Shown piece by piece: positions 4,892 to 36,313 of a DNA stretch of 64,000 nt. This DNA is from Halichondria panicea. Taxonomy: Eukaryota; Porifera; Demospongiae; Suberitida; Halichondriidae. The position numbers were made by a program, and so were the translations under genes. Within the stretch, counting starts at the first letter, position 1, and every line of letters starts with the position of its first letter. Below the pieces are notes generated by a model, which ran no database searches, was not told the origin of the DNA, and saw nothing but the letters and a program-made list of their open reading frames with translations. The stretch spans positions 4,689,963-4,753,962 of the forward strand of contig NC_087382.1 in the NCBI RefSeq assembly GCF_963675165.1. Reading direction: 5' to 3'.

Positions 4892-7800
4892 ATGCTGTCT
4901 AGAAATATTCTCAGCTGGTTAGTGCTACTGACCATAGCTACTGTTACCAGGAGTGAGCACTATCACATTGTGCCAGTGAATTCAACTGACTTGTGTAATG
5001 ACTATCGAAATGGAACTTGTTTTACTCTCGAGCAGCTTGTTCGAACCGACTTGTTATCTGGTGGAGACAATCTCACCTTGAGCTTTCTACCTGGAGATCA
5101 TGTGTTAACTGAGCAGTTATTGATTCTTAACTTCTCACATGTGCATCTAACTGGCCTGACGGAAAATACAACTGTAGTGAGATTCAATAGCAATGGTGTA
5201 ATACGTTTTGTTAGTATTACCAGATTGAGTATTGAACGTTTTGGTTTCATTGGAGCGAATCTTGGACCACCAAACTCACATCAAGTATTGATCGTTGACA
5301 GTGCCCATGATGTCTATATCAATGACTGCTACTTCCTGGACTTTGATTTACTCATTCAGGCAGAACGGAACATAGTTAAGATTACTAAAACTGAAACTGC
5401 GACAATTGAGAGCACTCTCTTTATGAACAACACTGGACTGGCACTGCACCTTGAGGCTGATAATGTGTACATAACAAATAGTGTGTTCACTAGAAATGAT
5501 GGAGGTGCAGTTAACATTGAATCAAACAACGTACTGATCAACAACACAGAGTTCAACTACAACAGTGCTAAGAAAAGAGGAGCATTAAAAGTTGTATCTG
5601 GAACAGTAGTGATCACTTGGAGCACCTTCACAAATAACAATGTTTATCGGCGGTATGGTGGAGCGATTTATGTTGCCTCAGGCAGTAATGTGTCCATCTC
5701 CAATTGTGAGCTGACAAATAACAGTGCTGGCTGGAATGGTGGAGCAATTTATGTTAGATCAAGTAGTGTGTCTATTTCCGGTAGCACATTGACCAATAAC
5801 AGTGCTGACAAATTTGGTGGAGCAATTGATGTTTACTCAAGCAATGTGTCTATCTCCGACAGCATGCTGAAAAACAACACAGCTGATAATAGTGGTGGAG
5901 CGATTGGTATTTTTAAAGGGAGTGTGACCATTTCCGATAGCAACCTGACAAACAACAGAGCTAATTCCAATAGTGGAGTGATTAATGCTGACTTGGGAAA
6001 TATTTCTATCTCCAACAGCACGCTGACAAAAAACAGTGCTGGCTTGAACGGTGGAGCGATTCGTGTTATATCAGGATATGTGTCTATCTCAGACAGCACA
6101 CTGACAAACAACAGAGCTAATCGCTATGGTGGTGTGATCGATATTCAAAAAGGCAATGTTTCTATTTCCAACAGCATACTGACAAACAACAGTGGTGGCA
6201 AGAATGGTGGCGCTATTGACAATTTTTCAAGCAGTTTGTCTATCTACGACAGCAGACTGACAAACAACACTGCTCACTGGAGTGGTGGAGCGATTCATGT
6301 TAAGTCAGGGAATGTTTCTATCTCAGACAGCACACTGACAAACAACAGAGCTGACAGGAATGGTGGAGCAATTGATACTTCTTCAAGCATTGTGTCTATC
6401 TCAGACAGTAGACTGACAAAAAACAGTGCTCACTTGAGTGGTGGAGGGATCGGTGTTTACTCAGGCAGTGTGACCATCTCTGATAGCTCACTGACAAACA
6501 ATAGAGCTGATAACCATGGTGGAGCGATTGATATTGATTCAGGCATTGTTTCTATTTCCAACAGCACACTGATAAAAAATAGTTGTGGCAAGAACGGTGG
6601 AGCGATTGACAATTTTTCAGGCATTTTGTTTATCTACGACTGTACCCTGACAAACAACACTGCTAATAAGAGTGGTGGAGCGATTGGTGTTCAATCAGGC
6701 AATGTGTCCATCTCCGATAGTACGCTGACAAACAACAGTGCTCATATTGGTGGAGCGATTAATATTGACTCAGGAAGTGTATCTATCTCTGACAGCACAC
6801 TGGCAAGTAACTATGCGGATGGGAATGGTGGAGCAATTCATACTTACTCAGGCGGTGTATCCATCTTCAATAGCACACTGACAAGTAACAATGCTGCCGG
6901 GAATGGTGGAGCGATTGGTGTTTACTCAGGCAATGTGTCTATCTCAGATAGCTCACTGACAAACAACACTGCTGACGGGAATGGTGGAGTGATTCATGGT
7001 GACCTTGGCAGTATTGTGTCGATCTCTGACAGTATGCTGAACAACAACACAGCTACCTCTGGAGGAGGGATATTTCTGAGAGTAAGTACACTCTTTGTAA
7101 ATGAGCCAACAACGATCAATCTCAACACAGCACACCAGGATGGTGGAGGAATTTATGCTCATTCAAGTAGAGTTGAATTTGAATCTGCTTTACCGATTCC
7201 ATCAAATATACGAAGTGAGATTATTGAAAACATTGCTGAGAATGGTGGAGGTATTTATGCAGTAGCTACAACCATTAAACTAACTCGATCACACGTTAAC
7301 ATTGACTCAAACACAGCAACCGCTAGTGGAGGTGGAGTGTTTCTACGGCAAAGTTCAAGACTGTACTTGTTTAAAAAAAACTATGAAAGTGCAAATCAAT
7401 TATATGTCAAGCTAGCGATTAACAACAACTTGGCTCAGTACGGAGGGGGAATATTTGTGGCGGATGACACAGAGAGTGGTGCCTGCAGAGGAGGAGTTAT
7501 AGAAAATGGTGCTACTCAAACCATTTTTGAGGACTGTTTTATTCAAACAATCAATTTGAATGAAATCAAGTCGAAAATAAACCACTTCAACACATTCATG
7601 ACTAACAACACAGCTACCCTGTCAGGAGCAGACATCTATGGAGGTTTGTTGGACAGGTGTACAGCAGAACAAAATGCTGAATATCACAATTCTTCCAATG
7701 GATTGGACTACATATACAAAACTGTAAAACTGTCCACTGAGTTATCAATCTCCTCTTCACCTGTTCAAGTAACTTTTTGTAACTATACACAACGCGAAAA

Positions 7801-12400: not shown

Positions 12401-12433
12401 ATAGATATCAGACAACACAGCAGAGTCGTGCTA

Positions 12434-12648: not shown

Positions 12649-15600
12649 ATGCTGTCTAGAAATATTCTCAACTGGGTGGTGCTACTGACCCTAGCTACCG
12701 TTACCAGGAGCGAGCACTATCACATTGTGCCAGTGGATTCAACTGACTTATGTAATGGATATCGAAATGGAACTTGTTTTACTCTCGAGCAGTTTGTTGA
12801 AACCGACTTGTTATCTGGTGGAGACAATCTCGCCTTGAGCTTTCTACCTGGAGATCATGTGTTAACTGAGCAGTTATGGATTCGTAACTTCTCACATGTG
12901 CATCTCACTGGCCTGCCGGAAAATACAACTGTAGTCAGATTCCATAGCAATGGTGTAATACGTTTTGTTAGTATTACCAAATTGAGCATTGAACGTTTTG
13001 GTTTCATTGGAGTGAATTTGGGATCACCAAACTCACATCCAGGATTGATCGTTGACAGTGCCCACGATGTCTATATCAACGACTGCTACTTTACGAACTT
13101 TGATTTACTCAATCAGGCAGATATAGTTAAGATTACTAATACTCAAACTGCAACAATTGAAAGCACTCTCTTTATGAAGAACATTGATCGGGCACTGCAC
13201 ATCGAGGCTGATGATGTGTACATAACAAAGAGTGTGTTCACTAGAAATGATGGAGGTGCAGTTGACATTCAATCAAACAACACACAGATCAACAACACAG
13301 AGTTCAACTACAACAGTGCTGAGAATGGAGGAGCAGTAGAAGTGATATCTGGTACTGTAGTGATCACTTGGTGTAACTTTACAAATAACAAAGCTTCTCA
13401 GGATGGTGGAGCGCTTTATGTTACTTCAGGCAGCAGTGTGACCATATCCGATAGCAACCTGAAAAACAATGGAGCTAATTGGGGTGGAGCGATAAATGTT
13501 GATTCAGGCAATGTATCTATTTCCGGCAGCACACTGATAAACAACACTGCTATAATGAATGGTGGAGCTGTTGATGCTTCTTCCTCAAGCATTGTGTCCA
13601 TCTTTAACAGTATATTAACAAACAACACCGCTGACAGGAGTGGTGGAGCGTTTGGTGTTACTTCAAACAGCCGTGTGACTATATCCGATAGCAACCTGAC
13701 AAACAACGGAGCTAAAATTTCAGGTGGAGTGATAAATGTTGATTTAGGCAGTGTATCTATTTCCGGCAGCACACTGACAAACAACATTGCTGCAAAGAAT
13801 GGTGGAGCTATTGATGCTTCTTCCACCAGCCGTGTGACCATATATGATAGTAACCTGAAAAACAATGGAGCTAATTGGGGTGGAGCAATAAATGTTAATT
13901 CAGGCAATGTATCTATTTCCGGCAGCACACTGACAAACAACATTGCTGCAATGAATGGTGGAGCTATTGATGCTTCTTCCTCAAGCATTGTGTCCATCTT
14001 CAACAGTATATTAAGAAACAACACCGCTGATGGGAGTGGTGGAGCGATTGGTGTTCAATCAGGCAATTTGAACATATTTGATAGCAACTTGACGAACAAC
14101 AGAGCTAAAATTTGGGGTGGAGCGATAAATGTTGACTCAAGCCGTGTGTCTATCTCCGACAGTATACTGACAGATAACACTGCTGACAGTAGTGGTGGAG
14201 CTATTGATGCTTCCTCAAGCATTATGTCCATCTTCAACAGCACACTGACAAACAACAGTGCTAAAAGGAATGGTGGAGCAATTGGTGTTACTTCAGACAG
14301 CAGCGTGACCATATCCAATAGCAACTTGACGAACAACAGAGCTAAAATTTCAGGTGGAGCGATAAATGTTGATTCAGGCAATGTATCTATTTCCGGGAGC
14401 ACACTGACGAACAACATTGCTGCAATGAATGGTGGAGCTATTGATGCTTCTTCCTTAAGCATTGTGTCCATCTTCAACAGTATATTAAGAAACAACACCG
14501 CTGACGGGAGTGGTGGAGCGTTTGGTGTTACTTCAGGCAGCCGTGTGACCATATCCGATAGCAACCTGACAAACAACAGAGCTAAAATTTGGGGTGGAGC
14601 GATAAATGTTGAATCAGGCAGTGTATCTATTTCCAATAACACAACACTGACAAACAACACTGCTGATGGGAGTGGTGGAGCGATTCGTGTTCAATCAGGC
14701 AATTTGAACATATTTGATAGCAACTTGACGAACAACAGAGCTAAAATTTGGGGTGGAGCGATAAATGTTGATTCAGGCAATGTATCTATTTCCGGCAGCA
14801 CACTGACAAACAACATTGCTACAATGAATGGTGGAGCTATTGATGCTTCTTCCTCAAGCATTGTGTCCATCTTCAACAGTATATTAAGAAACAACACCGC
14901 TGACGGGAGCGGTGGAGCATTTGGTGTTACTTCAAGCAGCCGTGTGACTATATCCGATAGCAACCTGACAAAAAACGGAGCTAAAATTTCAGGTGGAGTG
15001 ATAAATGTTGATTTAGGCAGTGTATCTATTTCCGACAGCACACTGACAAACAACATTGCTACAATGAATGGTGGAGCTATTGATGCTTCTTCCTCAAGCA
15101 TTGTGTCCATCTTCAACAGTATATTAAGAAACAACACCGCTGACGGGAGCGGTGGAGCATTTGGTGTTACTTCAAGCAGCCGTGTGACTATATCCGATAG
15201 CAACCTGACAAAAAACGGAGCTAAAATTTCAGGTGGAGTGATAAATGTTGATTTAGGCAGTGTATCTATTTCCGACAGCACACTGACAAACAACATTGCT
15301 ACAATGAATGGTGGAGCTATTGATGCTTCTTTCTCAAGCATTGTGTCCATCTTCAACAGTATATTAAGAAACAACACCGCTGACGAGAGTGGTGGAGCGT
15401 TTGGTGTTACTTCAGGCAGCCGTGTGACCATATCCGATAGCAACCTGACAAACAACAGAGCTAAAATTTGGGGTGGAGCGATAAATGTTGAATCAGGCAG
15501 TGTATCTATTTCCAATAACACAACACTAACAAACAACACTGCTGATGGGAGTGGTGGAGCGATTGGTGTTCAATCAGGCAATTTGAACATATTTGATAGC

Positions 15601-18600
15601 AACTTAACGAACAACAGAGCTAAAATTTGGGGTGGAGTGATAAATGTTGATTCAGGCAATGTATCTATTTCCGGCAGCACACTGATAAACAACAGTGCTA
15701 TAATGTATGGTGGACCTGTTTACAACATTGCTGCAATGAATGGTGGAGCTATTGATGCTTCTTCCTCAAGCATTGTGTCCATCTTCAACAGTATATTAAG
15801 AAACAACACCGCTGATGGGAGTGGTGGAGCGATTGGTGTTCAATCAGGCAATTTGAACATATTTGATAGCAACTTGACGAACAACAGAGCTAACATTTGG
15901 GGTGGAGCGATAAATGTTGACTCAAGCCGTGTGTCTATCTCCGACAGCATACTGACAGATAACACTGCTGACTACGGTGGAGCGATTGATGCTTCCTCAA
16001 GCATTATGTTCATCTTCAACAGCACACTGACAAACAACAGTGCTAAAAGGAATGGTGGAGCGATTGGTGTTACTTCAAACAGCAGCGTGACCATATCCGA
16101 TAGCAATCTGATAAACAATAGAGCTGAAATTTGGGGTGGAGCGATAAATATTGACTCAGGCAATGTGTCTATCTCTGACAGCATACTAGAAAAGAACAGT
16201 GCTAAGAGGAATGGTGGAGCAATTGATACTTACTCAGGAAGTGTGTCCATCTCCAACAGCACACTTACAAACAACATTGCTGACAGGAGTGGTGGAGCGA
16301 TCGGTGTTTACTCAAGCAGTGTGTCTATCTCAGACAGCACACTGACAAACAATCGTGCTGTCGCGAATGGTGGATTGATCCATTGTGACCTTGGCAGTAC
16401 TGTGTCCATTTCGGACAGTATGCTGAAAAACAACACAGCTACCTCTGGAGGAGGAATATTTCTAAGAGTGAGTACACTCTCTGTAAATGAGCCAATAAAG
16501 ATCAATCTCAACACAGCACACCAGGATGGTGCAGGAATTTATGCTCATTCTAGTAGAGTTGATTTTCAATCTGCGTCTGCAAATATACGAAGTGAGATTG
16601 TTGACAACATTGCTGGAAATGGTGGAGGTATTTATGCAGTAGCTACAACCATTAAACTAACACACTCACACGTCAGCATCGGCTCAAACACCGCAACTGC
16701 TAGTGGAGGTGGAGTGTTTCTACGGCAAAGTTCAAGACTGTACTTATTTAAAAAAGACCATGAACATGTAGCAAAAAAGAATCAGCATAAAATGACGTTC
16801 GTATCATTATTGATCAACAACAACTCGGCTCAGTATGGAGGGGGAATATTTGTGGCGGATGACACAGAGAGTGGTGCCTGCAGAGGAGGGGTCACAGAAA
16901 CTGGTGCTATTCAAACTATTTTTGAGGACTGCTTTATTCAAACAATAAACTTAATGGAACCCGAACCCAAAATAAACCATTTCAACACATTCATGACTAA
17001 TAACACAGCTACTCAGTCAGGAGCAGATATCTATGGAGGTCTGTTGGACAGGTGCACAGCAGAACAAAATGCTGAATATTACAATTCTTCAAATGGATTG
17101 GACTACATAAAAAGAACCGTAAAACCATATACTGAGTTATCAATTTCCTCTTCGCCTATTCAAGTAACTTTTTGCAACCATTCACAAAGTGACTATGTTT
17201 TCACGAAAAAGGGACACACATACAAAATCAATGTTATGGCTTTTGACCAAGTTGGAAATCCAATCAATGCCACAATTCGCAGTTCTGTTATCACTAATAG
17301 TGGTGTTGGTCGTCTCAAAGAAGGACAATCTGAACAAGTAGTTGGCAATCAATGCACAGAATTAGAGTACAATGTATTCTCACAAGACAGCTCTGCTCAA
17401 GTAGAACTCTATGCTGATGGTCCATGCATGAATTTGGGAATTTCGAGACAAGTTATTAATATTTCTTTTCTACCCTGCACATGCCCTGTCGGACTAAAAC
17501 CAATTCAGTCCGATATTGAGTGCAAATGTGACTGTGATCCAGACTTGCAACAACTATATCAGATAACAAATTGTTCTGAGGAAAATGGGTCCATAAAGCT
17601 GGAAAGTAATAACAACATATGGATAGAATTCATAAATACTCCCAACAAAACAGGGTATGTTGTTAGTAACTGTGCATTTGACTATTGTGTAGAAAAACCA
17701 ATCAACATCAGTCTAAGCAACCCTGACGAACAGTGTGCCTTCAATCGAAGTGGTGTCTTGTGTGGAGAATGTGAACCAGGACTCAGTCTTGTGTTGGCTA
17801 CGTCAAACTGTAAAGAATGCTCTAATCTCTACCTTCTTCTACTAATTCCATTTGCACTGGCAGGCATATTGCTAGTTGCTTCAATTCTCGTACTCAATAT
17901 CACTATAGCAACTGGAAATATTCATGGCCTCATTTTTTACGCCAACATAGTAGCTGCTAATAGAGCAATTTTCCTTCCTAGTGTAAAAAATGTTTTAACA
18001 GTTTTTGTATCATGGGTGAATCTTGACTTGGGAATCGAGACTTGCTTTTACGATGGAATGAACTCTCAAGGAAAAGCGCTCATTCAACTTGTCTTTCCCA
18101 CTTACCTATTTGTTCTAATGCTTCTTATTATACTTTTGAGCAAGTACTTTGACTCATTTGCAAAGCTCCTCTCCAACAGGAACCCAGTTGCTGCCCTAGG
18201 CACACTTGTCCTACTCTCTTATTCTAAATTTTTACGGTTTATTGTTGCAGCACTACAATTCACAGAATTGCATTATCCTGACGGTTCGACCAAAGTTGTT
18301 TGGCTGTACGACGGCAATGTGCAATACTTCACTCCCATTCGCATCCCTCAGTTTGTTGCTGCTATCATAATCCTCATTGCCGGTGTATTGTTCACTGTAC
18401 TGCTCTTCTTTGGACAATGGTTTCCTCGCTGTTCCAAGGTTATGATATGCACCAAGAACACATACTACAATGGTTTCATGGACGCATACCATGCTCCATT
18501 CACTCCCAAGCATCGCTACTGGGTGGGACTGCTTCTCTTTGCTCTGATTGTTTATAATTTAGTAGCTGCTATGGATACAGACACTTCTCTCCCTGTTCTA

Positions 18601-21245: not shown

Positions 21246-21287
21246 TTCAATGCAATAATACAGGGAAAGCAATAATTACTAAAGTCT

Positions 21288-22673: not shown

Positions 22674-22894
22674 GTAAGTGTGTGTGTGTACACATTACCC
22701 TAGTCCTAATTAGGCATCCAGATCAGCCTAGACACAGTTGTGTCTAGGTTACTACCTAGGGGAGAACCTTCCAAAAATTAATTAACAGCCAGGTGATGCT
22801 GCAATGTTTATAGTACAACACTGATATTGGAATAACACTGTTATATAACCACAGAAAATATTGGAAGAACACTATTACATACATGTATGATAAC

Positions 22895-22906
22895 TGTGTA
22901 TTTATA
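22895..22906 (+). promoter_or_regulatory. TATA-like box of receptor gene 3
   Basis: TGTGTATTTATA, followed by GAGTGATTGCCTTC, as before gene 4. It lies 89 bp before the leader donor. Confidence 0.45.
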
Positions 22907-22983
22907 GAGTGATTGCCTTCAAAGAAGAGCATTAACTAGCAGAAGTGGTAGAACAGAAAGGAGTGCAACATCCATTATTAACA

Positions 22984-23073
22984 GTGAGTTGATGCAGTAG
23001 CATCTATATTATACAATCTGGAAGCAGTATAATTATTATAATCATTATACAACCATCATTATACATTCACCAG
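22984..23073 (+). other. 5' leader intron of receptor gene 3
   Basis: Predicted 90-nt intron: donor GTGAGT after TATTAACA, acceptor CACCAG two bases before the ATG. It matches the intron position in the paralogs, with a shorter piece between acceptor and start codon than in genes 1 and 2. Confidence 0.6.
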
Positions 23074-23075
23074 AT

Positions 23076-26000
23076 ATGCTGTCTAGAAATATTCTCAGCT
23101 GGTTAGTGCTACTGACCCTGGCTGCTGTTACCAGGAGCGAGCACTATCACATTGTGCCAGTGGATTCAACTGACTTGTGTAATGACTATCGAAATGGAAC
23201 TTGTTTCACTCTCGAGCAACTTGTTCAAACAGACCTGTTATCTGGTGGAGACAATCTCACCTTGAGCTTTCTACCTGGAAATCATATGTTAACTGAGCAG
23301 TTATTGATTCGTAACTTTTCACACGTGCATATCACCGGCCAGAAAAAAAGTACAACTATAGTCATATTCCATAGCAATGGTGTGATACATTTTATTAGTA
23401 TTACTGAATTGAGTATTGACAACTTGGGTTTCGTTGGAGCGAATGTTGGACCACAAAACTCACATCAAATGTTGATCATTGATAGTGCCAATAATATCTA
23501 TATTGACAACTGCAAATTTTCGGACTTTGATCAAGCGGAACATTTAGTACTCAATATCTTTGCATTACTCGATCAGGTGGAAACCCACATAGTTAAGATT
23601 GCTAATACTCAAACTGCAATAATTGAGAGCACTCTCTTTATAAACAACACTGGTCGGGCACTGCACGTTGAGGCTGATAATGTGTACATAACAAATAGTG
23701 AGTTCACTAGAAATGATGGAGGTGCAGTTTACATTAAATCAAACAATATACTGATCAACATCAACAACGCGGAGTTCAACTACAACAGTGCTGAAAACGG
23801 GGGAGCAGTAGAAGTGGTATCTGGTACTGTAGTGATCACTCGGTGTACCTTCACAAATAATAAAGCTTCTCAGTTTGGTGGAGGGATTAATGTTGGCTCA
23901 GGCAGTAGTGTGTCCATCTCTGACAGTACGCTGACAAACAACGCAGCTGACTATGGTGGAGCGATTTATGCTAGATCAAGAAGTGTGTTCATCTCTGACT
24001 GTGAACTGACTAACAACAGAGCTAGAAGGAGAGGTGGAGCGATTCATGTTTACAAAGGCAAAAACGTGTCCATCTCCAACAGCACGCTGACAAACAACAA
24101 AGCTGGTGGGTCTGGTGGAGCAATTCGTGTGGAATCAAGCAGTTTGTCGATCTTTGAAAGTGAACTGACTAACAACAGAGCTAGAAGGAGAGGTGGAGCG
24201 ATTCATGTTTACAAAGGCAAAAACGTGTCCATCTCCAACAGCACGCTGACAAACAACAAAGCTGGTGGGTCTGGTGGAGCAATTCGTGTGGAATCAAGCA
24301 GTTTGTCGATCTTTGAAAGTGAGCTGACAAACAACAGCGCTAAGAGGAACGGTGGAGCGATTCGTATGCTGTCAGGCAACATGTTCATCTCCAAATGTGA
24401 GGTTACAAACAACAGAGTAGAACAAAATGGTGGAGGAGCAATTCGTGTAGGGTCAGGCAACGTGTCTATCTCCGAATGTAAGCTGACTAACAATAGAGCT
24501 AAGAAGAGTGGTGGAGCAATTTATGTTAGCTCAGGCAACGTGTCCATCTCTGACTGTACGTTCTCAGGAAATGTGTCCATCTCCGAACACAACGGTGGTG
24601 TCTATGAGGGTAAAGCCATTTCAGACAGCACCCTAACAAACAACTATGGTACAGTGATTGCTGTTTTTCGTCAATCCACCTTGATCATCAACAATACTAA
24701 TATTACTAATAGTAATGGCCCCATCTATGCTTTTGGCAGTCGAGTCGAGTTTATTGGACCTACAACACTCAGTAACAATCGCGGTGTGTTGGGTGGAACT
24801 ATAAGCCTTGACCGGAGTCAAATGTACATTAACACAGAAGGAGTTATCATCACCAACAACACAGCTATCTCTGGAGGAGGGATATTTCTGAGAGAAAGTA
24901 CACTTTTTGTGAATAAGCCAATAGAGATCTACCACAACACAGCACATAATGGCGGAGGGATTTATGCTTATTCAAGCATAATTAAATTTAATAAACCATA
25001 TTCGTCTAAACAAAGTGAAATTGCTAACAACACTGCTAAGAATGGTGGAGGCATACAAGCAGTATCTTCAACTATTGAACTTATTCAATCATACGTCAAC
25101 ATCGACTCAAACACAGCTAAAGCTAGTGGAGGTGGAATGTATTTACAGCAAAGTTCGAAATTATACCACCTTTTTAAAAAAATCGATAAATTAAAAAATA
25201 CGATTGATGTCAAGTTAATGATTAACAACAACTTGGCTCAGTACGGAGGGGGAATATTTGTGGAAGATGACACACAGACGAGTGCGTGTGGAAGAGAGGC
25301 CACAGAAACAATTTTTTCTGAATGTTTTATTCAAACTATTGAGCTTAATCAAAGAAAAACTAAAACTCTAAGCTATTTCATCACATTCATGGCTAACAAC
25401 ACAGCTACCCAGTCAGGAGCAGACATCTATGGAGGTCTGTTGGACAGGTGTATAGCAAAATATCACATCTATTCTTTAAATGGATTGGAATACATAATTA
25501 AAACTGTGAAATCCTCCTCCAAATTATCAATCTCCTCTAGGCCTGTTCAAGTAATTATTTGCAATAATGACCATATTTCTTCAAGAAAGGGGCACATGTT
25601 TAGAATCAGTGTTATGGCTATTGACCAAGTTGGAAATCCTACAAATGCCACAATTCACAGTTCTGTTATCAGTGAAAGTGGATTTGTTCGTCTCAAAGAA
25701 GGACAGGCAAAACAAGAAGTTGGCAATCAGTGCACAGAATTAGAGTACAATGTGTTCTCACAAGACAGGTCTGCTCAAGTGGAACTCTATGCTGAAGGTC
25801 CATGCATCAATTTGGGAATTTCAAGACAACTTATTAATATTTCTTTTCTACCCTGCACATGCCTTATTGGGCTCAAGCCAATTCAGTCGGATATTGAGTG
25901 CAAGTGTGACTGTGATCCAGACTTGCAAGTATATCAGATAACAAACTGTTCTGAGGAAAATGGGACCATAAAGCTGGAAAGTAATAACAACATATGGATA

Positions 26001-27602
26001 CAGTTCATAAATACTACCAATGAAACAGGGTATGTTGTTAGTAACTGTGCATTTGACTATTGTGTAGAAAAACCAGTCCACATCAGTCTAAGCAACCCTG
26101 ACGAACAATGTGCTTACAATCGAAGTGGTGTCTTGTGTGGAGAATGTGAACCAGGACTAAATCTTGTGCTGGCTACGTCAAACTGTAAAGAATGCTCTAA
26201 TCTTTACCTTCTTCTACTAATTCCATTTGCGCTGGCAGGCATATTGCTAGTTGCTTTAATTCTCGTGCTCAACATCACTATAGCAACTGGAAATATTCAT
26301 GGCCTCATTTTTTATGCCAACGTAGTAGCTGCTAATAGAGCAATTTTCTTTCCTAGTGTAAAAAACTTTTTAACAGTTTTTGTATCATGGGTGAATCTTG
26401 ACCTGGGAATCGAGATATGCTTTTACAATGGAATGAACTCTCAAGGAAAAGCGCTCATTCAACTTGTCTTTCCCACTTACCTATTTTTTCTAATGCTTCT
26501 TATTATACTTTTGAGCAAGTACTTTGACTCATTTTCAAAGCTCCTCTCCAACAGGAACCCAGTTGCTGCCCTAGGCACACTCGTCCTACTCTCTTATTCT
26601 AAATTCTTACGATTTATTGTTGCAGCACTACAATACACAGAATTGCATTATCCTGATGGTTCAACCAAGACTGTTTGGTTGTTTGACGGCAATGTGCAAT
26701 ATTTCACTTTCATTCACATTCCTCAGTTTATTGCTGCTATCATAATCCTCATTGCTGGTGGATTGTTCACTGTAATGCTCTTCTTTGGACAATGGTTTCC
26801 TCGCTGTTCGAAGGTTATAATATGGACCAAGAACACATACTACAATGGTTTCATGGACGCATACCATGCTCCATTCACTCCCAAGCATCGCTACTGGGTG
26901 GGACTGCTCCTCTTTGCTCTGATTGCTCATAATCTAGTAGTTTCCATGGCTCCAAACACGTCTCTTCCTGTTTTATCTGCTGGATGCATTGCATTCGGAC
27001 TGATAACATTGACCAACCGAGTGCACAAAAAGCAATTTAATGAATATATAGAAACATTCTTTCTGCTTAATCTCGGCATTCTATCTATTGGCACTTCCTA
27101 TGTTGTTGAAACACACCAACAGCAAGAAACATTGACCATTGTTTCAATGTCTATAGCTTTCATCCTTTTTGTGATAATAATCAGCTACCATTTCTACCAT
27201 TTCATACTAAAGACCACCAAGATATGGCTTAAGATAAAGGAAGTCACAAAGAAGTTGAGAATTGGTGCTACAGAGAAAAAGAATCAACAACCTAAGAATG
27301 CCATGGCAATGCATCAGCTTGCAGCCAATGATGACGATGAGCAACTTAATAATGCTGAGCAAATAAACATTGTGAATCCACCCCCGTACACAAATGGAGC
27401 CATGGAAGAAGCTGACCCTGATCGCTACATCACTCCTCCCATCATCAGACCAGCCACGAGGCCGGAACAGCTGAGACTCTCCTACATGGATGAACTAGCC
27501 CCCCTCACCACAGAGGACTACAGACCAGCCCCTCCCCCTCCAAGAGTCAACCGTCGTCCTGCTGTTACATACACAGAAATCACCGGACCCTGTGCGCAAT
27601 GA
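23076..27602 (+). CDS. Receptor gene 3: Pmp-repeat multi-pass membrane protein (1508 aa)
   Basis: Shortest of the four paralogs, with about 20 repeats. It shares the signal peptide, N domain (with an ~11-residue insertion near residues 150-165), beta-sandwich segment GHMFRISV (~839), Cys-rich neck, membrane core (about 1042-1375) and tail. Its ectodomain groups with gene 4: both have HITGQK near the N domain, RRGGAIHVYKG-type repeats and a stretch with few canonical repeats before the final GGGI repeats. A 159-bp block is duplicated in tandem (24002-24319). The tail has PPPY and PPPPRVNRRP and ends GPCAQ. N-glycosylation sequons recur in the repeats. The function is unknown; a cell-surface recognition or adhesion receptor is inferred. 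Confidence 0.85.
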   Translation: MLSRNILSWLVLLTLAAVTRSEHYHIVPVDSTDLCNDYRNGTCFTLEQLVQTDLLSGGDNLTLSFLPGNHMLTEQLLIRNFSHVHITGQKKSTTIVIFHSNGVIHFISITELSIDNLGFVGANVGPQNSHQMLIIDSANNIYIDNCKFSDFDQAEHLVLNIFALLDQVETHIVKIANTQTAIIESTLFINNTGRALHVEADNVYITNSEFTRNDGGAVYIKSNNILININNAEFNYNSAENGGAVEVVSGTVVITRCTFTNNKASQFGGGINVGSGSSVSISDSTLTNNAADYGGAIYARSRSVFISDCELTNNRARRRGGAIHVYKGKNVSISNSTLTNNKAGGSGGAIRVESSSLSIFESELTNNRARRRGGAIHVYKGKNVSISNSTLTNNKAGGSGGAIRVESSSLSIFESELTNNSAKRNGGAIRMLSGNMFISKCEVTNNRVEQNGGGAIRVGSGNVSISECKLTNNRAKKSGGAIYVSSGNVSISDCTFSGNVSISEHNGGVYEGKAISDSTLTNNYGTVIAVFRQSTLIINNTNITNSNGPIYAFGSRVEFIGPTTLSNNRGVLGGTISLDRSQMYINTEGVIITNNTAISGGGIFLRESTLFVNKPIEIYHNTAHNGGGIYAYSSIIKFNKPYSSKQSEIANNTAKNGGGIQAVSSTIELIQSYVNIDSNTAKASGGGMYLQQSSKLYHLFKKIDKLKNTIDVKLMINNNLAQYGGGIFVEDDTQTSACGREATETIFSECFIQTIELNQRKTKTLSYFITFMANNTATQSGADIYGGLLDRCIAKYHIYSLNGLEYIIKTVKSSSKLSISSRPVQVIICNNDHISSRKGHMFRISVMAIDQVGNPTNATIHSSVISESGFVRLKEGQAKQEVGNQCTELEYNVFSQDRSAQVELYAEGPCINLGISRQLINISFLPCTCLIGLKPIQSDIECKCDCDPDLQVYQITNCSEENGTIKLESNNNIWIQFINTTNETGYVVSNCAFDYCVEKPVHISLSNPDEQCAYNRSGVLCGECEPGLNLVLATSNCKECSNLYLLLLIPFALAGILLVALILVLNITIATGNIHGLIFYANVVAANRAIFFPSVKNFLTVFVSWVNLDLGIEICFYNGMNSQGKALIQLVFPTYLFFLMLLIILLSKYFDSFSKLLSNRNPVAALGTLVLLSYSKFLRFIVAALQYTELHYPDGSTKTVWLFDGNVQYFTFIHIPQFIAAIIILIAGGLFTVMLFFGQWFPRCSKVIIWTKNTYYNGFMDAYHAPFTPKHRYWVGLLLFALIAHNLVVSMAPNTSLPVLSAGCIAFGLITLTNRVHKKQFNEYIETFFLLNLGILSIGTSYVVETHQQQETLTIVSMSIAFILFVIIISYHFYHFILKTTKIWLKIKEVTKKLRIGATEKKNQQPKNAMAMHQLAANDDDEQLNNAEQINIVNPPPYTNGAMEEADPDRYITPPIIRPATRPEQLRLSYMDELAPLTTEDYRPAPPPPRVNRRPAVTYTEITGPCAQ
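24002..24319 (+). repeat. 2 x 159-bp in-frame tandem duplication in gene 3
   Basis: Unit 24002-24160 repeats at 24161-24319 with no mismatch seen. It codes for 53 residues spanning a GGAIHVYKG repeat and a GGAIRVESS repeat. The 5' part of the unit is related to the 81-bp unit of gene 4. Confidence 0.9.
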
Positions 27603-28613
27603 AGTGTGAACTGCCGCCTTACTTGATACAATTTTACATGTACAGCTTAAAAAACAATGTTCGTTTTCACTAGTTAACTGCATGAATAGTTATTAGCTGT
27701 TGTTGATAATTTTAGTAAAGAGAGATAGGCTTTCTGGTTGTGCTACATGTATATAATTATGATTTGTATTGAATATTTCATTTCCACAAAATGTTGGCTA
27801 TCAAAAATTAATGCATGTTGCCTTCCCGGTTTTAGTCTTAGCTATTTTTACTATTTTGTTTCAATTGACGCGTTAGAGCTTTTCTGATTCGGGTAAAACA
27901 GTGAAGAGTTACTGAACAATGATCTATAGATAGGCCAACCTCTCAAATAGTCAGGAACAAACTCATTGTATATAATGATCTACGAATTTGACATAGCAAA
28001 GTTGACTTTCCGAAATATACTTAAGTATAGCATGCTGGGCAACTAGTGTTGTGTCTTGGGTACAACAATTGTATTTCGAAACTCCAGCTCCGTTGTTGGT
28101 GTTACAGCGGATGGTAGCAATCATCCCTATGGCCCATACTAGCTGTAATGGGATCAAAAGTACAACTACATAATGATTATAATATTAAATTTATGTATAA
28201 TCTTGTACCACCAGGACATATGCAATAATTATGTGACAGACAGTATTATGAATTAATCATCCAAGTAATAAGACAGTACAGTTATGTATGCTTAGTCGAA
28301 TACCCGCCTCAACCTGTTTACTTTTGGGATACTTTAATTAACCATTAATTTTTGAATTGAGCAGTCTCTTATACACACTCACAGATGTTGGATTGTTTAG
28401 TCGAAATCATCCACTGTTTTTTGATAGTAAAATATTATAATTATATAGCTCTGACATGTTTTCAGTTGGTAGCGCATTAGCAGATTCCCTTAGCATGGAC
28501 ATTCCTTAATTCTCATCATTATACTGAAACCATTATTTGTACCTCTCTCAAAATTAGTAGCTATATACATACAGGAATTTGCATTGAGAGCATTGCTTCG
28601 AGAGCTTGTTTAC

Positions 28614-28952
28614 CTTGTGTACATCGGTAATATTAGCTGACACTAGCTCCAAAATATTTGACAGTAGATCTAGCAAGGGGTACTTTCTGCAATATCTGCT
28701 CCAATTGAATGGCTGTAGTATAGACGTAACTTCCATGGACTGAGCCCTTCTTTTTCCTGCTTTATGATCTGATATATAGTCATCAATTGGGTACGTGTTG
28801 TGTCTCACTTTTGATTTCAAATACATCTCGCTCAAATAATTATAGCATTGTTTTATAGTACTGCAAACTAAGTTCAGTTCACAGACTAAAATCTCGGGAG
28901 CATCATGTATATACTGAATAAATTTTTTGCTGTAGTAACCATAACAACAGTG
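28614..28952 (-). pseudogene. Coding-like remnant, copy 2 (unknown family)
   Basis: Copy of 20258-20590. Compared with copy 1 it has a short insertion after the YPIDDY codons and has lost two bases near 28681, shifting the LLDLLSN part into another frame. The two copies decay differently, which argues against present coding function in at least this one. Confidence 0.3.
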
Positions 28953-29374
28953 CAAGCATAATTATGGTTGCCAATAGTGTGAGTGACTGGTTCTAGTCTG
29001 TTGCTTCAGCTTCTGTCTGATATGATGAAGGGGGGTAACGTGTTCATTGCACTTAATTATAGGGAAAGCAATATTAACGTGTTCTGTACATGCAATTAAT
29101 TTGTGTCTAAGAGCATGGTTTGCCTAACTGAATGTACATTGTCATAACAATTAATGTTTACAGGAAGTGTATAGCCTGTATAAGTAGCTTCCAGTATAAA
29201 TTAGTCTACGCTGCACGATGTTTATATATAGTTGTGAGGGTGCACACGCACGCCCCACATTTATGATCTGATAGTCATCAATTGGGTATGTGCTGTGCGT
29301 CACTTTTGATCTCAAATACATCTCACTCGAATATAATTCCCAACCAGTCTACTTAATTTATGTGCCCCACATGA

Positions 29375-29600
29375 TTAGGAATGTGTGGTCTATGAATGCT
29401 TTGTTGGTCACGGTTGTTGTGACATGTGCACACCCAAGGCCACATATGAATGCTTGGTTAGTCCCCACTGTCAATCTCCATTAGTATGAATGTTTGGTCT
29501 ATGAATGCTTTTTTGGTGTTTGGTTGTGACACGTACACACATATGAATGCTTGGTTAGTCCCCACTGTCAATCCCCTAATGTTTGGTCGATGAATGCTTT
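29375..29600 (+). repeat. GAATGCTTGGTC motif cluster, gene 3-4 spacer
   Basis: Duplicate of the cluster at 21010-21245 with few differences. Another pair in opposite orientations occurs at about 30400-30490, where ACCAAGCATTCATATG faces ATGAATGCTTGGTC. Confidence 0.6.
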
Positions 29601-29654
29601 GTTTGTTCAATGCAATAATACAGGGAAAGCAATAAAAATTATTACTAAAGTCTG

Positions 29655-30215
29655 AATTCAACCTTCATAAAGTTGTCAATAATTTTGTCATACTTCACTG
29701 AAATTCAAAGTTTCATTGGATTCCTTGCTGAAAAGCGCTTCTATCTATATGCTATAGAGCTGGTAAGCTCCAACCGGTTAAAAGTTAGCATTTTCCATGC
29801 TGAAGTCCCAGGCATACAGTACGTACTTGTCCACCACATGCACATAAAAGCATTAATGAAGCCATAATTGACCACATAACTTCCGGGGCCGCAAATAGAC
29901 TTTAACGTGTTCTGTTTGTCTGAGAGTATGATTTCAATTAATTTGTGCAGGAAGTTAAGCTTCCAGCATAAGTCTATATGTGCGTTGAGTTTTACCCCGG
30001 AAGTTATGTGGTCAACTGATTATGGCTTCATTTATGCTTTATGTGGTTGACAGGGAGTTCTACATGGAAAATGCTAACTTTTAGCTGGTTGCAGCTTATC
30101 AGCTCTACAGCATATAGATAGAAGTGCTTTTTAACAAGGAATTAATCTAATGGTATATGAAAATTTGAAATTTCAGTGAAGTATGACAAAGTTATTACAA
30201 CTTTATGAAGGTCAA
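29655..30215. repeat. Foldback (inverted) repeat, copy 2
   Basis: Same structure as 21288-21832: arms carrying CTTCTATCTATATGCT and its reverse complement, with a ~100-bp loop. It was duplicated together with the spacer. Confidence 0.65.
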
Positions 30216-31110
30216 ACTCAACAAAATAGACTTTAGTCAGCCTCTATTGTGTTGCATGGTATACGTTGTGACACAGGCCCATGCAGGGCCACATTTGAAT
30301 GCTTGTCTACACATGCAATGTAGCCATGCACATTTACAAAATCTCCCAGCATGAAATCAGAATTAATGTGTGTACGGGGACATTATATGGGGTGTGTGCT
30401 CTTGACCGTAACCAAGCATTTGTGACCAAGCATTCATATGTGGGGTACACATGCACATTAATTCTGATTTCAATGAATGCTTGGTCAATCCCCACTGTCT
30501 ATACAACTAGGTAAATAAAGTGAAGTGGGCTGGCTTCTGACACACTAATGGCTGCATGCATGCGCAACATTGGGAGAGTATAGATAGACAAAAATGCTCT
30601 ACTGTTTATATCAATTTTTTTGTTTGATTGTGACATTATTGTATAACGGGAAAATTTAGCGAGTATTATATTTGACGAATGAAGCATTTGAACAAGTCCA
30701 CTGGTAAACTTATCATTTTGGCAAAATTCACCAAATCGCCAAAATAATTAAGACGCTCGCCAACTTTTCCTGTTATACAGTTCAATTAAATGGGCAGGGA
30801 AGGGGGCGTGTCTCCAACACATTTTGCGCGGCCCTGTTCCACAACCTCACCAATGTGGTAAATTTAATTTCCTGGATCTGCTCCTGCAGTTCATTGTGTA
30901 CACATCACCACGACTCTATATATGCACGCCTAAAGCACACCAATGCACAATGAATGCAACCGCTTGAAGCATGCAGTACCAATGCAGGAACTCTCCAGGA
31001 GATACTGCAATGTTTATAGTACAACACTGATATTGGAATAACACTGTTATATAACCACAGAAAACATTGGAATGACACTATTACACATACATGTATGTTA
31101 TAACTGCATG

Positions 31111-31120
31111 TGTATATATA
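31111..31120 (+). promoter_or_regulatory. TATA-like box of receptor gene 4
   Basis: TGTATATATA followed by GAGTGATTGCCTTCAAAG, 87 bp before the leader donor, as in gene 3. Confidence 0.5.
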
Positions 31121-31197
31121 GAGTGATTGCCTTCAAAGAAGAGCATTAACTACCAGAAGTGGTAGAACAGAAAGGAGTGCAACATCCATTATTAACA

Positions 31198-31283
31198 GTG
31201 AGTTGATGCAGTAGCATCTATAATTATTATACATTCTGGGAGCAGTATAATCATTTTCAATCATCATTATACATGCACCTCAG
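31198..31283 (+). other. 5' leader intron of receptor gene 4
   Basis: Predicted 86-nt intron with donor GTGAGT after ATTAACA and acceptor CACCTCAG two bases before the ATG. It is equivalent to the introns of genes 1-3. Confidence 0.6.
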
Positions 31284-31285
31284 AT

Positions 31286-34200
31286 ATGCTGTCTAGAAAT
31301 ATTCTCAGCTGGTTAGTGCTGCTACTGACCCTAGCTACTGTTACCAGGAGTGAGCACTATCACATTGTGCCAGTGGATTCAACCGACTTGTGTAATGACT
31401 ATCAAAATGGAACTTGTTTTACTCTCGAGCAGCTTGTTCAAACATACCTGTTATCTGGTGGAGACAATCTCACCTTGAGCTTTCTACCTGGAGATCATGA
31501 GTTAACAGAGCAGTTTATGATTCGTAACTTTTCACACGTGCATATCACCGGCCAGAAAGAAAGTACAACTGTGGTCAGATTCCATAGCAATGGTACTATA
31601 CGTTTTGATGGTACTGCTGCATTAAATATTGAACGCTTGGGTTTTGTTGGAGCGAATGTTGGAGAACGAAACTCACGTCAAAGTGTGCTCATTGACGGTT
31701 CCAATGATATCTATATCGACAGCTGCTACTTTTCGGACTTCGAATTACTGAATCAAGTGGAAGCCCATAATAATGATGTACTCCGTATCACTAATACTCA
31801 AACTGCGACAATTGAGAGCACTCTCTTTATGAACAACACTGGTCGGGCACTGCACGTTGAGGCTGATGATGTGCACATAACAAATAGTGTGTTCACTAGA
31901 AATAATGGAGGTGCAGTTGACATTGAATCCAACAACTCTCTGATCAACAACACAGAGTTTAACAATAACAGTGCTGAGATTGGAGGAGCAGTAGAATTGG
32001 CATCTGGTACTGTAGTGATCACTTGGTGTAACTTCACAAATAACAAAGCTTATCTGTACGGTGGAGCGATTTATGTTAGCTCAGGCAATAGTATGTTCAT
32101 CTCTGACTGTACGCTGACAAACAACGCAGCTGACTATGGTGGAGCGATCTATTCTAGATCAAGAAGTATGTTCATCTCTGACAGTACGCTGACAAACAAC
32201 ACAGCTGACTATGGTGGAGCGATTTATGCTAGATCAAGAAATGTATTCATTTCTGACTGTGAGCTGACTAACAACAGAGCTAAGAGAGGCGGTGGGGCAA
32301 TTCATGTTTACAAAGCCAAAAATGTGTCCATCTTCAACAGCACGCTGACAAACAACAAAGCTGACGGGTCTGGTGGAGCGATTCATGTGGAATCAGGCAG
32401 TGTGTCGATCTCTAACTGTGAGCTGACAAAAAACAAAGCTAACTATGATGGTGGAGCAATTCATGTTGGATCAAAAAGTGTGTTCATCACCGACTGTGAG
32501 CTGACTAGCAACAGAGCTAGAAGGAGAGGTGGAGCGATTCATGTTTACAAAGGCCAAAACGTGTCCATCTCCAACAGCACGCTGACAAACAACAAAGCTA
32601 ACAGGAGAGGTGGAGCGATTCATGTTTACAAAGGCCAAAACGTGTCCATCTCCAACAGCACGCTGACAAACAACAAAGCTAACAGGAGAGGTGGAGCGAT
32701 TCATGTTTACAAAGGCCAAAACGTGTCCATCTCCAACAGCACGCTGACAAACAACAAAGCTAACGGGTCTGGTGGAGCGATTCATGTGGAATCAGGCAGT
32801 GTGTCGATCTCTAACTGTGAGTTGACAAAAAACATAGCTGACTATGATGGTGGAGCAATTCATGTTGGATCAAAAAGTGTGTTCATCACCGACTGTGAGC
32901 TGACTAGCAACAGAGCTAGAAGGAGAGGTGGAGCGATTCATGTTTACAAAGGCAAAAACGTGTCCATCTCCAACAGCACGCTGACAAACAACAAAGCAGC
33001 TTACGGGACTGGTGGAGCGATTCGAGTAGAATCAGGCAGTTTTTTATCGATCTTTGAAAGTAAGCTGACAAACAACAGCGCTAAGAGGAGCGGTGGAGCG
33101 ATTTATATGCAGTCAGGTAACGTGTCTATCTCTGAATGTAAGCTGACTAACAACAGAGCTAAGAGGAGTGGTGGAGCAATTTATGTTAGATCAGGCAACG
33201 TGTCCATCTCTGACAGTACGTTCTCAGGAAATGTGTCCATCTCTGAACACAACGTTGGTGTCTATGAGGGTGAAGCCATTTCAGACAGCACGCTAACAAA
33301 CAACTATGGTACAGTGATTGCTGTTTCTCAATCCACCTTGATCATCAACAACACTAATATTACTAATAGTAATGGCCCCATCTATGCTTTGGACAGTCGA
33401 GTAGAGTTTAATGGACCTACAATACTCAGTAACAATCGTGGTGTATTGGGTGGAGCTATAAGCCTTGACCAGAGTCAAATATACATTAACACAGAAGGAG
33501 TAATCATCACCAACAACACAGCTATCTCTGGAGGAGGGATATTTCTGAGAGAGAGTACACTCTTTGTAAATAAGCCAATAAAGATCTATCAAAATACAGC
33601 ACATAATGGCGGAGGGATTTACGCTCATTCAAGCAGAGTTGAGTTCGAATATATGTTAGCAATTCTTCAGAGTACAACTAATCAGAGTGTGATTGCTCAC
33701 AACATTGCTAAGAATAATGGTGGAGGTATACATGCAGTATCTTCAACAATTAAACTTACTCAGTCGTACGTCAACATTGACTCAAACACTGCAAATGCTA
33801 ATGGAGGTGGATTATATCTACAGCACGGTTCAAAACTCTACCTACGTAAACAGACTGAAGAATATAGGTTTGGAAATCAATTATATGTCAAGTTAATGAT
33901 CGACAACAACTCGGCTCAGTATGGAGGGGGAATATTTGTGGAAGATGACACACAGAGGAGTGCTTGTAGAGGAAGGTTAAAAAAAAGTAATGCTATTCAC
34001 ACCATTTTTGCTGGTTGCTTCATTCAAACAATTAAACTGTATGATATCAGCATAATTAATCCTAACAATAAAAACTTTTTAAACACGTTTATGACTAACA
34101 ACACTGCTACCCAGTCAGGAGCAGACATCTACGGTGGTCTGTTGGACAGGTGTACAGCTAATAGAAATGCTGAGTATCACACTTTTTTTAGATTGGACTA

Positions 34201-36313
34201 CATAAAAAGAACTGTTAAACCCTCTACAAAGTTATCAATCTCCTCTTCGCCTGTTCAAGTAATTGTTTGTAACTATTCACAAAGTGATTATAATTCTACA
34301 AGAAAGGGACACACGTATAAAATTAGTGTTATGGCTGTTGACCAAGTTGGAAATCCAATGAATACCACGATTCACAGTTCTGTTATCACTAAGAGTGGTG
34401 TTGGTCGTCTCAAAGAAGGACAGGCTGAACAAACAGTTGGCAATCAGTGCACAGAATTAGAGTACAATGTATTCTCACAAGACAGTTCTGCTCAAGTGGA
34501 ACTCTATGCTGATGGTCCGTGCATCAATTTGGGAATTTCAAGACAACTTATTAATATTTCTTTTCTACCCTGCACATGCTCTATTGGGCTCAAGCCAATT
34601 CAGTCAGATATTGAATGCAAGTGTGACTGTGATCCAGTCTTGCAACAAGATTATCTAATAACACACTGTTCGGAGGAAAATGGAACTATGAAACTGGAAA
34701 GTAACATATGGATAAAAGTCGCAAATACCACCAACGGAAGTGGTTATGTTGTTAGCAATTGTACATTTGACTATTGTGTACAAAAACCAGTCAACATCAA
34801 TCTAAGCAACCCTGACGAACAGTGTGCCTACAATCGAAGTGGTGTCTTGTGTGGAGAATGTAAACCAGGACTCAGTCTTGTGTTGGCTACGTCAAGATGT
34901 GCACAATGCTCTGATGTTTACCTTCTTCTACTAATTCCATTTGCCCTGGCAGGTATATTGCTAGTTGCTTTAATTCTCGTGCTCAACATCACTATAGCAA
35001 CTGGAAATATTCATGGCCTCATTTTTTACGCCAACATAGTAGCTGCTAATAGAGCAATTTTCTTTCCTAGTGTAAACAACTTTTTAACAGTTTTTGTATC
35101 TTGGGTGAATCTTGACCTGGGGATCGAGATATGTTTTTACAATGGAATGAGCTCTCAAGGAAAAGCGCTCATTCAACTTGTCTTCCCCACTTACCTATTT
35201 GTTCTAATGTTTCTTATTATACTTTTGAGCAAGTACTTTGACTCATTTTCAAAGCTCCTCTCCAACAGGAACCCAGTTGCTACCCTAGGCACACTCGTCC
35301 TACTCTCTTATTCTAAATTCTTACGTTTCATTGTTGCAGCACTACAATTCACAGACTTGCATTATCCTGACGGTTCAACCAAAGTTGTTTGGTTGTTTGA
35401 CGGCAATGTGCAATACTTCACTCCCAATCACATCCCTCAGCTTGTTGCTGCTATCATAATCCTCATTGCTGGTGGATTGTTCACTGTAATGCTCTTCTTT
35501 GGACAATGGCTTCCACGCTGTTCCGAGGTTATGATATGGACCAAGAACACATACTACAATGGTTTCATGGACGCATACCATGCTCCATTCACTCCCAAGC
35601 ATCGCTACTGGGTGGGACTGCTCCTCTTTGCTCTGATCACTCATAATCTAGTAGCTGCCATGGATACAGATACTTCTCTCCCTGTTCTATCAGCTGGGTG
35701 TATTGCATTCGGACTGATATCATTGAACAACCGAGTGTATAAAAAGCGCCTTAATGAATATCTAGAAGCATTATTTCTACTTAATCTCGGCATTCTATCT
35801 ATTGGCACTTCCTATGTTGTTGAAACACGACTACAGCAAGAAACACTGACCATTGTTTCAATGTCTATAGCATTCATCCTTTTTGTGACAATTATCAGCT
35901 ACCATTTCCACCACTTCATACTAAACAACACCAAAATATGGCTTAAGATAAAGGAAGCCACAAAGAATTTGAGAACTACTACAGAGAAAAAGAACCAACA
36001 ACCTAAGAACGCCATGGCAATGCATCAGTTCGCAGCCAATGATGACGATGAACAACTTAATAATGCTGAGCAAACAGACATTGTGAATCTACCCCCTTAC
36101 ACAAATGGAGCAGTGGAAGAAGCTGACCCTGATCGCTACATCACTCCTCCCATCATCAGACCAGCCACGAGGCCGGAACAGCTGAGACTCTCTTACATGG
36201 ATGAGCTAGCCCCCCTCACTACAGATGACTACAGACCAGCCCCTCCCCCTCAAAGAGTAAACCGTCGTCCTGTTGTTACGTACACAGAAATCTCCGGGCC
36301 CTGTGCGCAATGA
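31286..36313 (+). CDS. Receptor gene 4: Pmp-repeat multi-pass membrane protein (1675 aa)
   Basis: Closest to gene 3 in ectodomain type and 5' flank, with about 26 repeats. The order of parts is signal peptide, N domain, repeats, GHTYKISV segment (~1008), Cys-rich neck, membrane core (about 1210-1547) and tail ending GPCAQ. Three consecutive near-identical 81-bp units (32522-32764) encode 27-residue RRGGAIHVYKG repeats. In the neck just before the first membrane segment it reads SRCAQCSDV like gene 1, not SNCKECSNL like genes 2 and 3, which suggests gene conversion. The tail has LPPY where the others have PPPY or PPLY, so the strict PPxY motif is lost. Receptor or adhesion function is inferred, not shown. 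Confidence 0.85.
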   Translation: MLSRNILSWLVLLLTLATVTRSEHYHIVPVDSTDLCNDYQNGTCFTLEQLVQTYLLSGGDNLTLSFLPGDHELTEQFMIRNFSHVHITGQKESTTVVRFHSNGTIRFDGTAALNIERLGFVGANVGERNSRQSVLIDGSNDIYIDSCYFSDFELLNQVEAHNNDVLRITNTQTATIESTLFMNNTGRALHVEADDVHITNSVFTRNNGGAVDIESNNSLINNTEFNNNSAEIGGAVELASGTVVITWCNFTNNKAYLYGGAIYVSSGNSMFISDCTLTNNAADYGGAIYSRSRSMFISDSTLTNNTADYGGAIYARSRNVFISDCELTNNRAKRGGGAIHVYKAKNVSIFNSTLTNNKADGSGGAIHVESGSVSISNCELTKNKANYDGGAIHVGSKSVFITDCELTSNRARRRGGAIHVYKGQNVSISNSTLTNNKANRRGGAIHVYKGQNVSISNSTLTNNKANRRGGAIHVYKGQNVSISNSTLTNNKANGSGGAIHVESGSVSISNCELTKNIADYDGGAIHVGSKSVFITDCELTSNRARRRGGAIHVYKGKNVSISNSTLTNNKAAYGTGGAIRVESGSFLSIFESKLTNNSAKRSGGAIYMQSGNVSISECKLTNNRAKRSGGAIYVRSGNVSISDSTFSGNVSISEHNVGVYEGEAISDSTLTNNYGTVIAVSQSTLIINNTNITNSNGPIYALDSRVEFNGPTILSNNRGVLGGAISLDQSQIYINTEGVIITNNTAISGGGIFLRESTLFVNKPIKIYQNTAHNGGGIYAHSSRVEFEYMLAILQSTTNQSVIAHNIAKNNGGGIHAVSSTIKLTQSYVNIDSNTANANGGGLYLQHGSKLYLRKQTEEYRFGNQLYVKLMIDNNSAQYGGGIFVEDDTQRSACRGRLKKSNAIHTIFAGCFIQTIKLYDISIINPNNKNFLNTFMTNNTATQSGADIYGGLLDRCTANRNAEYHTFFRLDYIKRTVKPSTKLSISSSPVQVIVCNYSQSDYNSTRKGHTYKISVMAVDQVGNPMNTTIHSSVITKSGVGRLKEGQAEQTVGNQCTELEYNVFSQDSSAQVELYADGPCINLGISRQLINISFLPCTCSIGLKPIQSDIECKCDCDPVLQQDYLITHCSEENGTMKLESNIWIKVANTTNGSGYVVSNCTFDYCVQKPVNINLSNPDEQCAYNRSGVLCGECKPGLSLVLATSRCAQCSDVYLLLLIPFALAGILLVALILVLNITIATGNIHGLIFYANIVAANRAIFFPSVNNFLTVFVSWVNLDLGIEICFYNGMSSQGKALIQLVFPTYLFVLMFLIILLSKYFDSFSKLLSNRNPVATLGTLVLLSYSKFLRFIVAALQFTDLHYPDGSTKVVWLFDGNVQYFTPNHIPQLVAAIIILIAGGLFTVMLFFGQWLPRCSEVMIWTKNTYYNGFMDAYHAPFTPKHRYWVGLLLFALITHNLVAAMDTDTSLPVLSAGCIAFGLISLNNRVYKKRLNEYLEALFLLNLGILSIGTSYVVETRLQQETLTIVSMSIAFILFVTIISYHFHHFILNNTKIWLKIKEATKNLRTTTEKKNQQPKNAMAMHQFAANDDDEQLNNAEQTDIVNLPPYTNGAVEEADPDRYITPPIIRPATRPEQLRLSYMDELAPLTTDDYRPAPPPQRVNRRPVVTYTEISGPCAQ
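32522..32764 (+). repeat. 3 x 81-bp in-frame tandem repeat in gene 4
   Basis: Units start at 32522, 32603 and 32684 and are identical or nearly so, each coding for one 27-residue GGAIHVYKGQNVSISNST-type repeat. A related unit with K instead of Q occurs downstream at about 32925. Single-repeat gain or loss is thus visible directly. Confidence 0.9.

Follow-up and report, generated by a model that had tools for sequence, protein, structure and literature searches.

A clustered family of Pmp-like beta-helix genes with a conserved membrane core in the sponge Halichondria panicea encodes candidate surface receptors

We analyzed a 64,000-nucleotide stretch of the genome of the sponge Halichondria panicea (contig NC_087382.1, positions 4,689,963 to 4,753,962; hereafter the window) and found that four adjacent genes in it belong to a family, 93 or more copies strong, with a repeat-built ectodomain and a constant membrane core. 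Each gene was a long single-exon open reading frame on the + strand, continuous in one frame, with a near-identical signal-peptide-like start followed by repeats, a Cys-rich neck, a core and a tail (Table 1), as an earlier note made from the letters of this DNA had described. We propose, with moderate confidence, that the proteins are surface receptors that would recognize ligands through the helix and would owe their diversity to changes in repeat number, sequence exchange among paralogs, and birth-and-death evolution. We hypothesize that their most likely use is microbe or self/non-self recognition by a sessile animal.

The ectodomain repeat comprised 26 residues of the GGAI...LTNN type. The Pfam model Chlam_PMP matched all four window proteins far beyond chance (E value 2.4e-30 to 3.2e-52), confirming the Pmp-like repeats that had been claimed; Pfam Beta_helix matched three of the four, and TIGR01376 (POMP) matched both of the window proteins scanned (E 5.7e-14 and 4.1e-17). 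Using a purpose-built hidden Markov model trained on 62 exact 26-residue units from six genes, we counted 21, 41, 15, and 21 units scoring above 0 in genes 1–4, and 21, 41, 12, and 19 scoring above 5; i.e., repeat number differed widely between neighbors as expected (15–41), although not within the predicted range of 20–46. Tandem Repeats Finder reported units of 75–81 bp and higher-order units of 156–240 and 399 bp. Genes 2 and 4 contained exact units with a partner of 96–100% identity in the same gene (13 of 19 and 4 of 9 units, respectively), but genes 1 and 3 had none (0 of 14 and 0 of 7). Judging from such units, the repeat arrays change quickly. The ectodomain model (gene 3 region in Table 1; predicted local distance difference test score, pLDDT, 78) was a right-handed parallel beta-helix with three-strand coils stacked as a solenoid, the feature by which membership of this class of proteins is recognized.

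Chlamydial Pmp is a surface protein family, and its models (Chlam_PMP, TIGR01376) share with the window proteins the GGAI-type repeat of a right-handed beta-helix. However, the window proteins differ in their signal peptide, Cys-rich neck, hydrophobic multi-helix core and tail, and in being encoded in an animal genome. Their C-terminal half is hydrophobic where Pmp has an autotransporter barrel, and neither this barrel nor the Pmp middle domain appeared at E ≤ 1 in a Pfam scan of the four proteins. No chlamydial Pmp was present among the 50 matches listed by VIA-align for the ectodomain. One PDB match to the ectodomain profile was obtained in a sequence search (E 0.15) and was taken as chance.

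The union of protein searches in the sponge's own genome (131.5 Mb, 39 contigs) gave at least 93 copies: 69 on contig C6 (7.6 Mb), 8 on C11, 7 on C14, 3 each on C4 and C16, 2 on C3, and 1 on C10. These counts are lower bounds, with 80–89 of 395–479 candidates scored per search; one further search added no copy among the matches listed. The Chlam_PMP model alone (19 positions) gave no match at E ≤ 0.001 against the whole genome, with 150 of 540 candidates scored, which we attribute to the shortness of the model. The window genes closed a cluster of 11 copies (gaps below 60 kb), the other 7 of which lay left of the window; that is, the four genes lay where the earlier note placed them, whereas the limits that it set for the feature (4892..36313) were too narrow. 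Frames of at least 1300 residues without a stop in the matched core were found in 56 of the 93 copies (1316–2847 residues, median 1540), whereas the matched core was interrupted by a stop in 10 copies and the frame was shorter in another 27. Frame length probably reflects mostly repeat number, because core length varied little in the members read. The family is therefore clustered and copy-rich, with a variable ectodomain and a constant core, which is the pattern of recognition gene families; what had been described for four genes as variable outside, constant inside and clustered was found again at a larger scale. Bacterial or symbiont contamination was ruled out by actin-family gene pieces and a two-SH3 gene in the window and by Wnt exons on C6. 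Wnt exon matches numbered 10 in this genome (best E 5.3e-54; two on C6) and none in 14 control genomes, indicating that the family sits in an animal genome.

We read 34 members closely. As L001–L030, four of which are the window genes, were picked as the best matches to the core of gene 3, these members lean to close relatives. The longest open frame of the 93 copies, L024 (C6:3203956; 2847 residues), would hold roughly 50 repeats more than gene 3 if all its extra length were repeats. L033 on C16 and its neighbors C16:4118748 and C16:4146392 formed a divergent subgroup; L033 had few canonical repeats and a shorter tail but retained the neck and core, and is possibly nearer the ancestral form.

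In the neck, 17 Cys residues were invariant among the four window genes within the first 262 residues of the alignment, in agreement with the claim of a Cys-rich neck. The core and tail of genes 2–4 were 86–88% identical to those of gene 1. Hydropathy above 1.6 marked 6–7 segments per protein, one of which in gene 4 was the signal peptide. The AlphaFold model of the core was unreliable (pLDDT 32, from a four-sequence alignment), and for this reason no fold search was conducted with it. Thus, a hydrophobic multi-segment core was found as predicted, and the predicted number of 9–10 segments is neither shown nor excluded. DUF7630 matched the four window proteins at 16.6–19 bits, under its curated cut-off of 27 bits and always at the neck end, and gave weak matches in 32 of 32 cores (best E 0.013); the neck end is perhaps a distant relative of this family. 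In protists and in other early animals, similar cores presumably occur downstream of Cys-rich domains. A prokaryotic or viral origin of the core found no support: none of 10 pattern matches in prokaryote contigs and none of 23 in IMG/VR viral contigs was confirmed; a phage collection likewise held no confirmed core relative.

A conserved multi-helix hydrophobic core would also suit environmental or food sensing, with the core acting as an ion channel or G-protein-coupled receptor (GPCR)-like sensor and the helix capturing glycans of food bacteria, and many of the folds nearest to the ectodomain bind or cleave polysaccharides. However, the core model failed, and no 7tm/GPCR Pfam match, adhesion GPCRs included, was obtained at E ≤ 1 in the four full proteins, nor was a channel family listed for them. 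A scan of 32 cores at E ≤ 10 listed 25 families, none of them a GPCR or channel family, although remote homology is possible given the failed model, and a profile of these 32 members found no PDB sequence match. We consider sensing of this kind improbable.

The tail ended in a block of the form YITPP..QLR..D.LAP.T..DY.PAP. In loose form, YITP was found in 33 of the 34 members, and QLR, LAP, and DY..AP in all 34. A C14 gene whose repeats are of a distinct type kept the block, and a C16 gene poor in canonical repeats kept part of it. The WW-ligand motif that had been noted in the tail was present in genes 1–3 as PPxY, but gene 4 carried LPPY instead and PPxY occurred in 6 of the 34 members, window genes included (8 of 34 if LPxY is counted). 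A WW-ligand tail was therefore ruled out as a family trait. On these patterns, PPxY is a local variant and the terminal YITPP... block is the constant feature of the tail.

Next, we compared regions by the ratio of nonsynonymous to synonymous differences (pN/pS) in 32 of the 34 members (L026 and L033 had no anchors), pooled in five bins of core synonymous divergence (dS). The ratio was 0.49–0.70 in the helix end, 0.39–0.47 in the neck, 0.28–0.36 in the core, 0.39–0.80 in the tail linker, and 0.33–0.64 in the tail block; i.e., it was below 1 in all regions. The comparison of ectodomain with core suggested in the earlier note thus gave the higher ratio in the helix end but no ratio above 1. Strong conservation, claimed for both core and tail, held for the core but not for the tail as a whole, in which the linker evolves fast by this measure. 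In the six window pairs, dS was 0.12–0.17 in the core, 0.16–0.37 in the neck, and 0.31–0.80 in the helix end, the latter over a fixed 260-residue stretch that may include repeats not truly homologous; a narrower anchored stretch of the helix end gave distances of 0.13–0.26 versus 0.06–0.07 in the core. Because dS is so much lower in the core than in the helix end, the constancy of the core may be partly due to recent common ancestry or conversion and not to selection alone.

A 91.9% match between the spacers that follow genes 2 and 3 suggests that they were duplicated recently. However, dS between genes 2 and 3 fell from 0.80 (helix end) through 0.31 (neck) and 0.17 (core) to 0.06 (tail). Genes 3 and 4 differed by 0.066 per site over the kilobase aligned upstream of them and by a dS of 0.38 in the helix end. 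As spacers and upstream regions are similar whereas helix ends are divergent, duplication breakpoints or conversion tracts seem to fall inside the genes. We also built maximum-likelihood trees of the helix end, neck, and core for 25 members (six more had no helix-end anchor, and L031 was excluded as distant). Each of the six cross-comparisons lost 203–621 log-likelihood (lnL) units, whereas controls of odd against even codons, with half the sites, lost 33–62 units (six values). Because the three trees conflict this strongly, the genes look mosaic. The two halves of the core tested against each other lost 83 and 284 units, so exchange probably occurred inside the core as well. Concordance of nearest neighbors between helix end and core was 2 of 26, a value that overstates the conflict because some nearest members had no helix-end anchor.

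A hypervariable binding face on the helix was considered but not adopted. Among 47 distinct window units, pN/pS was 1.15 (0.98–1.39) at positions 5, 7, 22, 24, 25, and 26, which were chosen after inspecting the data, versus 0.75 (0.63–0.84) at the other outward positions. In 32 distinct non-window units, the same comparison gave 0.86 (0.70–1.02) versus 0.82 (0.73–0.93), and the C14 gene alone (11 units) leaned the same way as the window (1.04 versus 0.75). The window signal was thus not replicated in non-window units, and we did not use it as evidence. Such results agree with a mostly neutral expansion, in which an intronless gene rich in repeats would have been shaped by tandem duplication and gene conversion, with no selection for diversity: no pN/pS above 1 was replicated, 37 of the 93 copies had a core interrupted by a stop in the matched part or frames below 1300 residues, and homogenization may account for part of the core constancy. 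However, 56 copies kept long open frames and the core ratio stayed at 0.28–0.36 in all five bins; therefore, purifying selection seems to act on many copies, and we regard a mostly neutral expansion as very unlikely.

If the proteins are recognition receptors, the beta-helix would project from the cell and bind glycans, microbial surfaces, or the helices of other cells, the core would pass a signal through the membrane, and the terminal tail block would dock a common cytoplasmic partner. Diversity would come from repeat-number change within the array, segment exchange between paralogs, and duplication with pseudogenization. Several results weigh against receptors of this kind. No Pfam family exceeded its cut-off in the core, and the core had no PDB sequence match (E ≤ 1 with a single protein, E ≤ 10 with the 32-row profile); because of this and the failed model, its topology and its role in transmission are unproven. 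Template modeling (TM) scores of the ectodomain in Foldseek were low (at most 0.28 by query length among the 50 matches listed). The tail motif first taken for a signaling ligand is infrequent in the family, as given above, and diversifying selection is not established on the ratios obtained, none above 1 having been replicated. The approximately unbiased (AU) test nominally rejected the odd/even controls too (0.0003–0.022); therefore, we set its p-values aside and used the size of the lnL conflict.

The same ectodomain could instead belong to adhesion or surface-coat proteins, in which the helix would pack between cells with itself or with matrix and its length would set spacing only, with no recognition step. 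The Foldseek matches included antigen 43 and a 'bacterial self-associating protein', both self-associating beta-helix proteins, with weak E values (0.016–0.066), and the ectodomains of the window proteins carried 23–54 N-glycosylation sequons each. However, function is not shown by fold similarity, and at least 93 paralogs, with the tail block present in 33–34 of the 34 members read, seem more than a purely structural role would call for; we regard adhesion as rather unlikely. Within recognition, a more far-reaching possibility, which we hold only tentatively, is that the family forms the germline repertoire of an unrecognized sponge-grade recognition system, a chromosome-scale beta-helix receptor complex that could include the long-sought allorecognition receptors. 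Specificities would then arise from repeat-number change and from ectodomain segments swapped among paralogs onto a common core and docking tail.

To our knowledge, the receptors for sponge allorecognition and symbiont discrimination are unsettled. If recognition is the true role, the family would offer at least 93 concrete candidates for both processes, 69 of which share a contig. The aggregation factor of sponges is a secreted proteoglycan. The main text of a paper on this factor and allografts (PMC5450542) had no occurrence of 'pmp' or 'outer membrane', which sets it apart from the present family as far as that text extends. The SRCR and NLR families of invertebrate immune receptors resemble it in forming large candidate recognition repertoires in sponges, according to two papers (PMC10855680, PMC12909245), but consist of other domains. 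No SRCR or NACHT family was listed in the Pfam scan of the four window proteins. LRR and VLR-type receptors are similar in that their solenoid of repeats pairs a fixed scaffold with exposed residues that vary; however, their fold is different, and in the window family the varying-face signal was not replicated and no somatic rearrangement is shown. Our literature search, whose coverage left out most subscription journals and all bioRxiv preprints, found no paper on a family combining a Pmp-like beta-helix with a membrane core among the papers listed, which for some topics were the top 12–15 of 254 to 14,253. Clustered receptor families that are variable outside and constant inside are a known kind, whereas, on domain content, a Pmp-like helix joined to an unclassified membrane core appears to be a combination that we did not find described.

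The start of gene 1 was placed at an inner Met aligned with the starts of genes 2–4; the first ATG of the frame is at 4817.

Table 1. Coordinates of the four genes, their parts and two spacers in the window
Feature	Position	Strand	Remarks
Gene 1	4892..9817	+	1641 aa, single exon
Gene 1 signal peptide	about 4892-4951	+	N-cap to about 5500
Gene 1 repeats	5501-7135	+	21 units; helix end to about 7636
Gene 1 Cys-rich neck	7637-8338	+	
Gene 1 membrane core	8339-9433	+	
Gene 1 tail	9434-9814	+	
Gene 2	12649..19218	+	2189 aa, single exon
Gene 2 repeats	13252-16521	+	41 units; higher-order tandem units of 240 bp (93% matched) and 399 bp (85% matched)
Gene 2 neck	17032-17742	+	
Gene 2 core	17743-18837	+	
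Gene 2 tail	18838-19215	+	
Spacer, genes 2-3	19219..23075	.	first 2.75 kb 91.9% match to start of spacer after gene 3
Gene 3	23076..27602	+	1508 aa, single exon
Gene 3 repeats	23679-24980	+	15 units; beta-helix model covers 23136-25472
Gene 3 neck	25428-26117	+	
Gene 3 core	26118-27212	+	
Gene 3 tail	27213-27599	+	
Spacer, genes 3-4	27603..31285	.	likely duplicate of 19219..23075 spacer; 94.1% over 1953 columns in comparison upstream of genes 3 and 4
Gene 4	31286..36313	+	1675 aa, single exon
Gene 4 repeats	31907-33748	+	21 units; 399-bp tandem units 94% matched
Gene 4 neck	34130-34831	+	
Gene 4 core	34832-35926	+	
Gene 4 tail	35927-36310	+	

To the right of the four genes, pieces of an actin-related gene lie over several frames on the - strand (40447-43137), an intron-bearing neighbor of the intronless family; the one piece scanned matched Pfam Actin under the cut-off (E 7.7e-05). 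We take this gene to be Arp3. An open stretch on the + strand (59588-61249) encodes two SH3 domains with a proline-rich middle (SH3_2, E 1.9e-18) and is adaptor-like. Short tandem arrays were present at 48209-48562 and 52213-52485, with a 176-bp unit (98% matched) and units of 66 and 138 bp.
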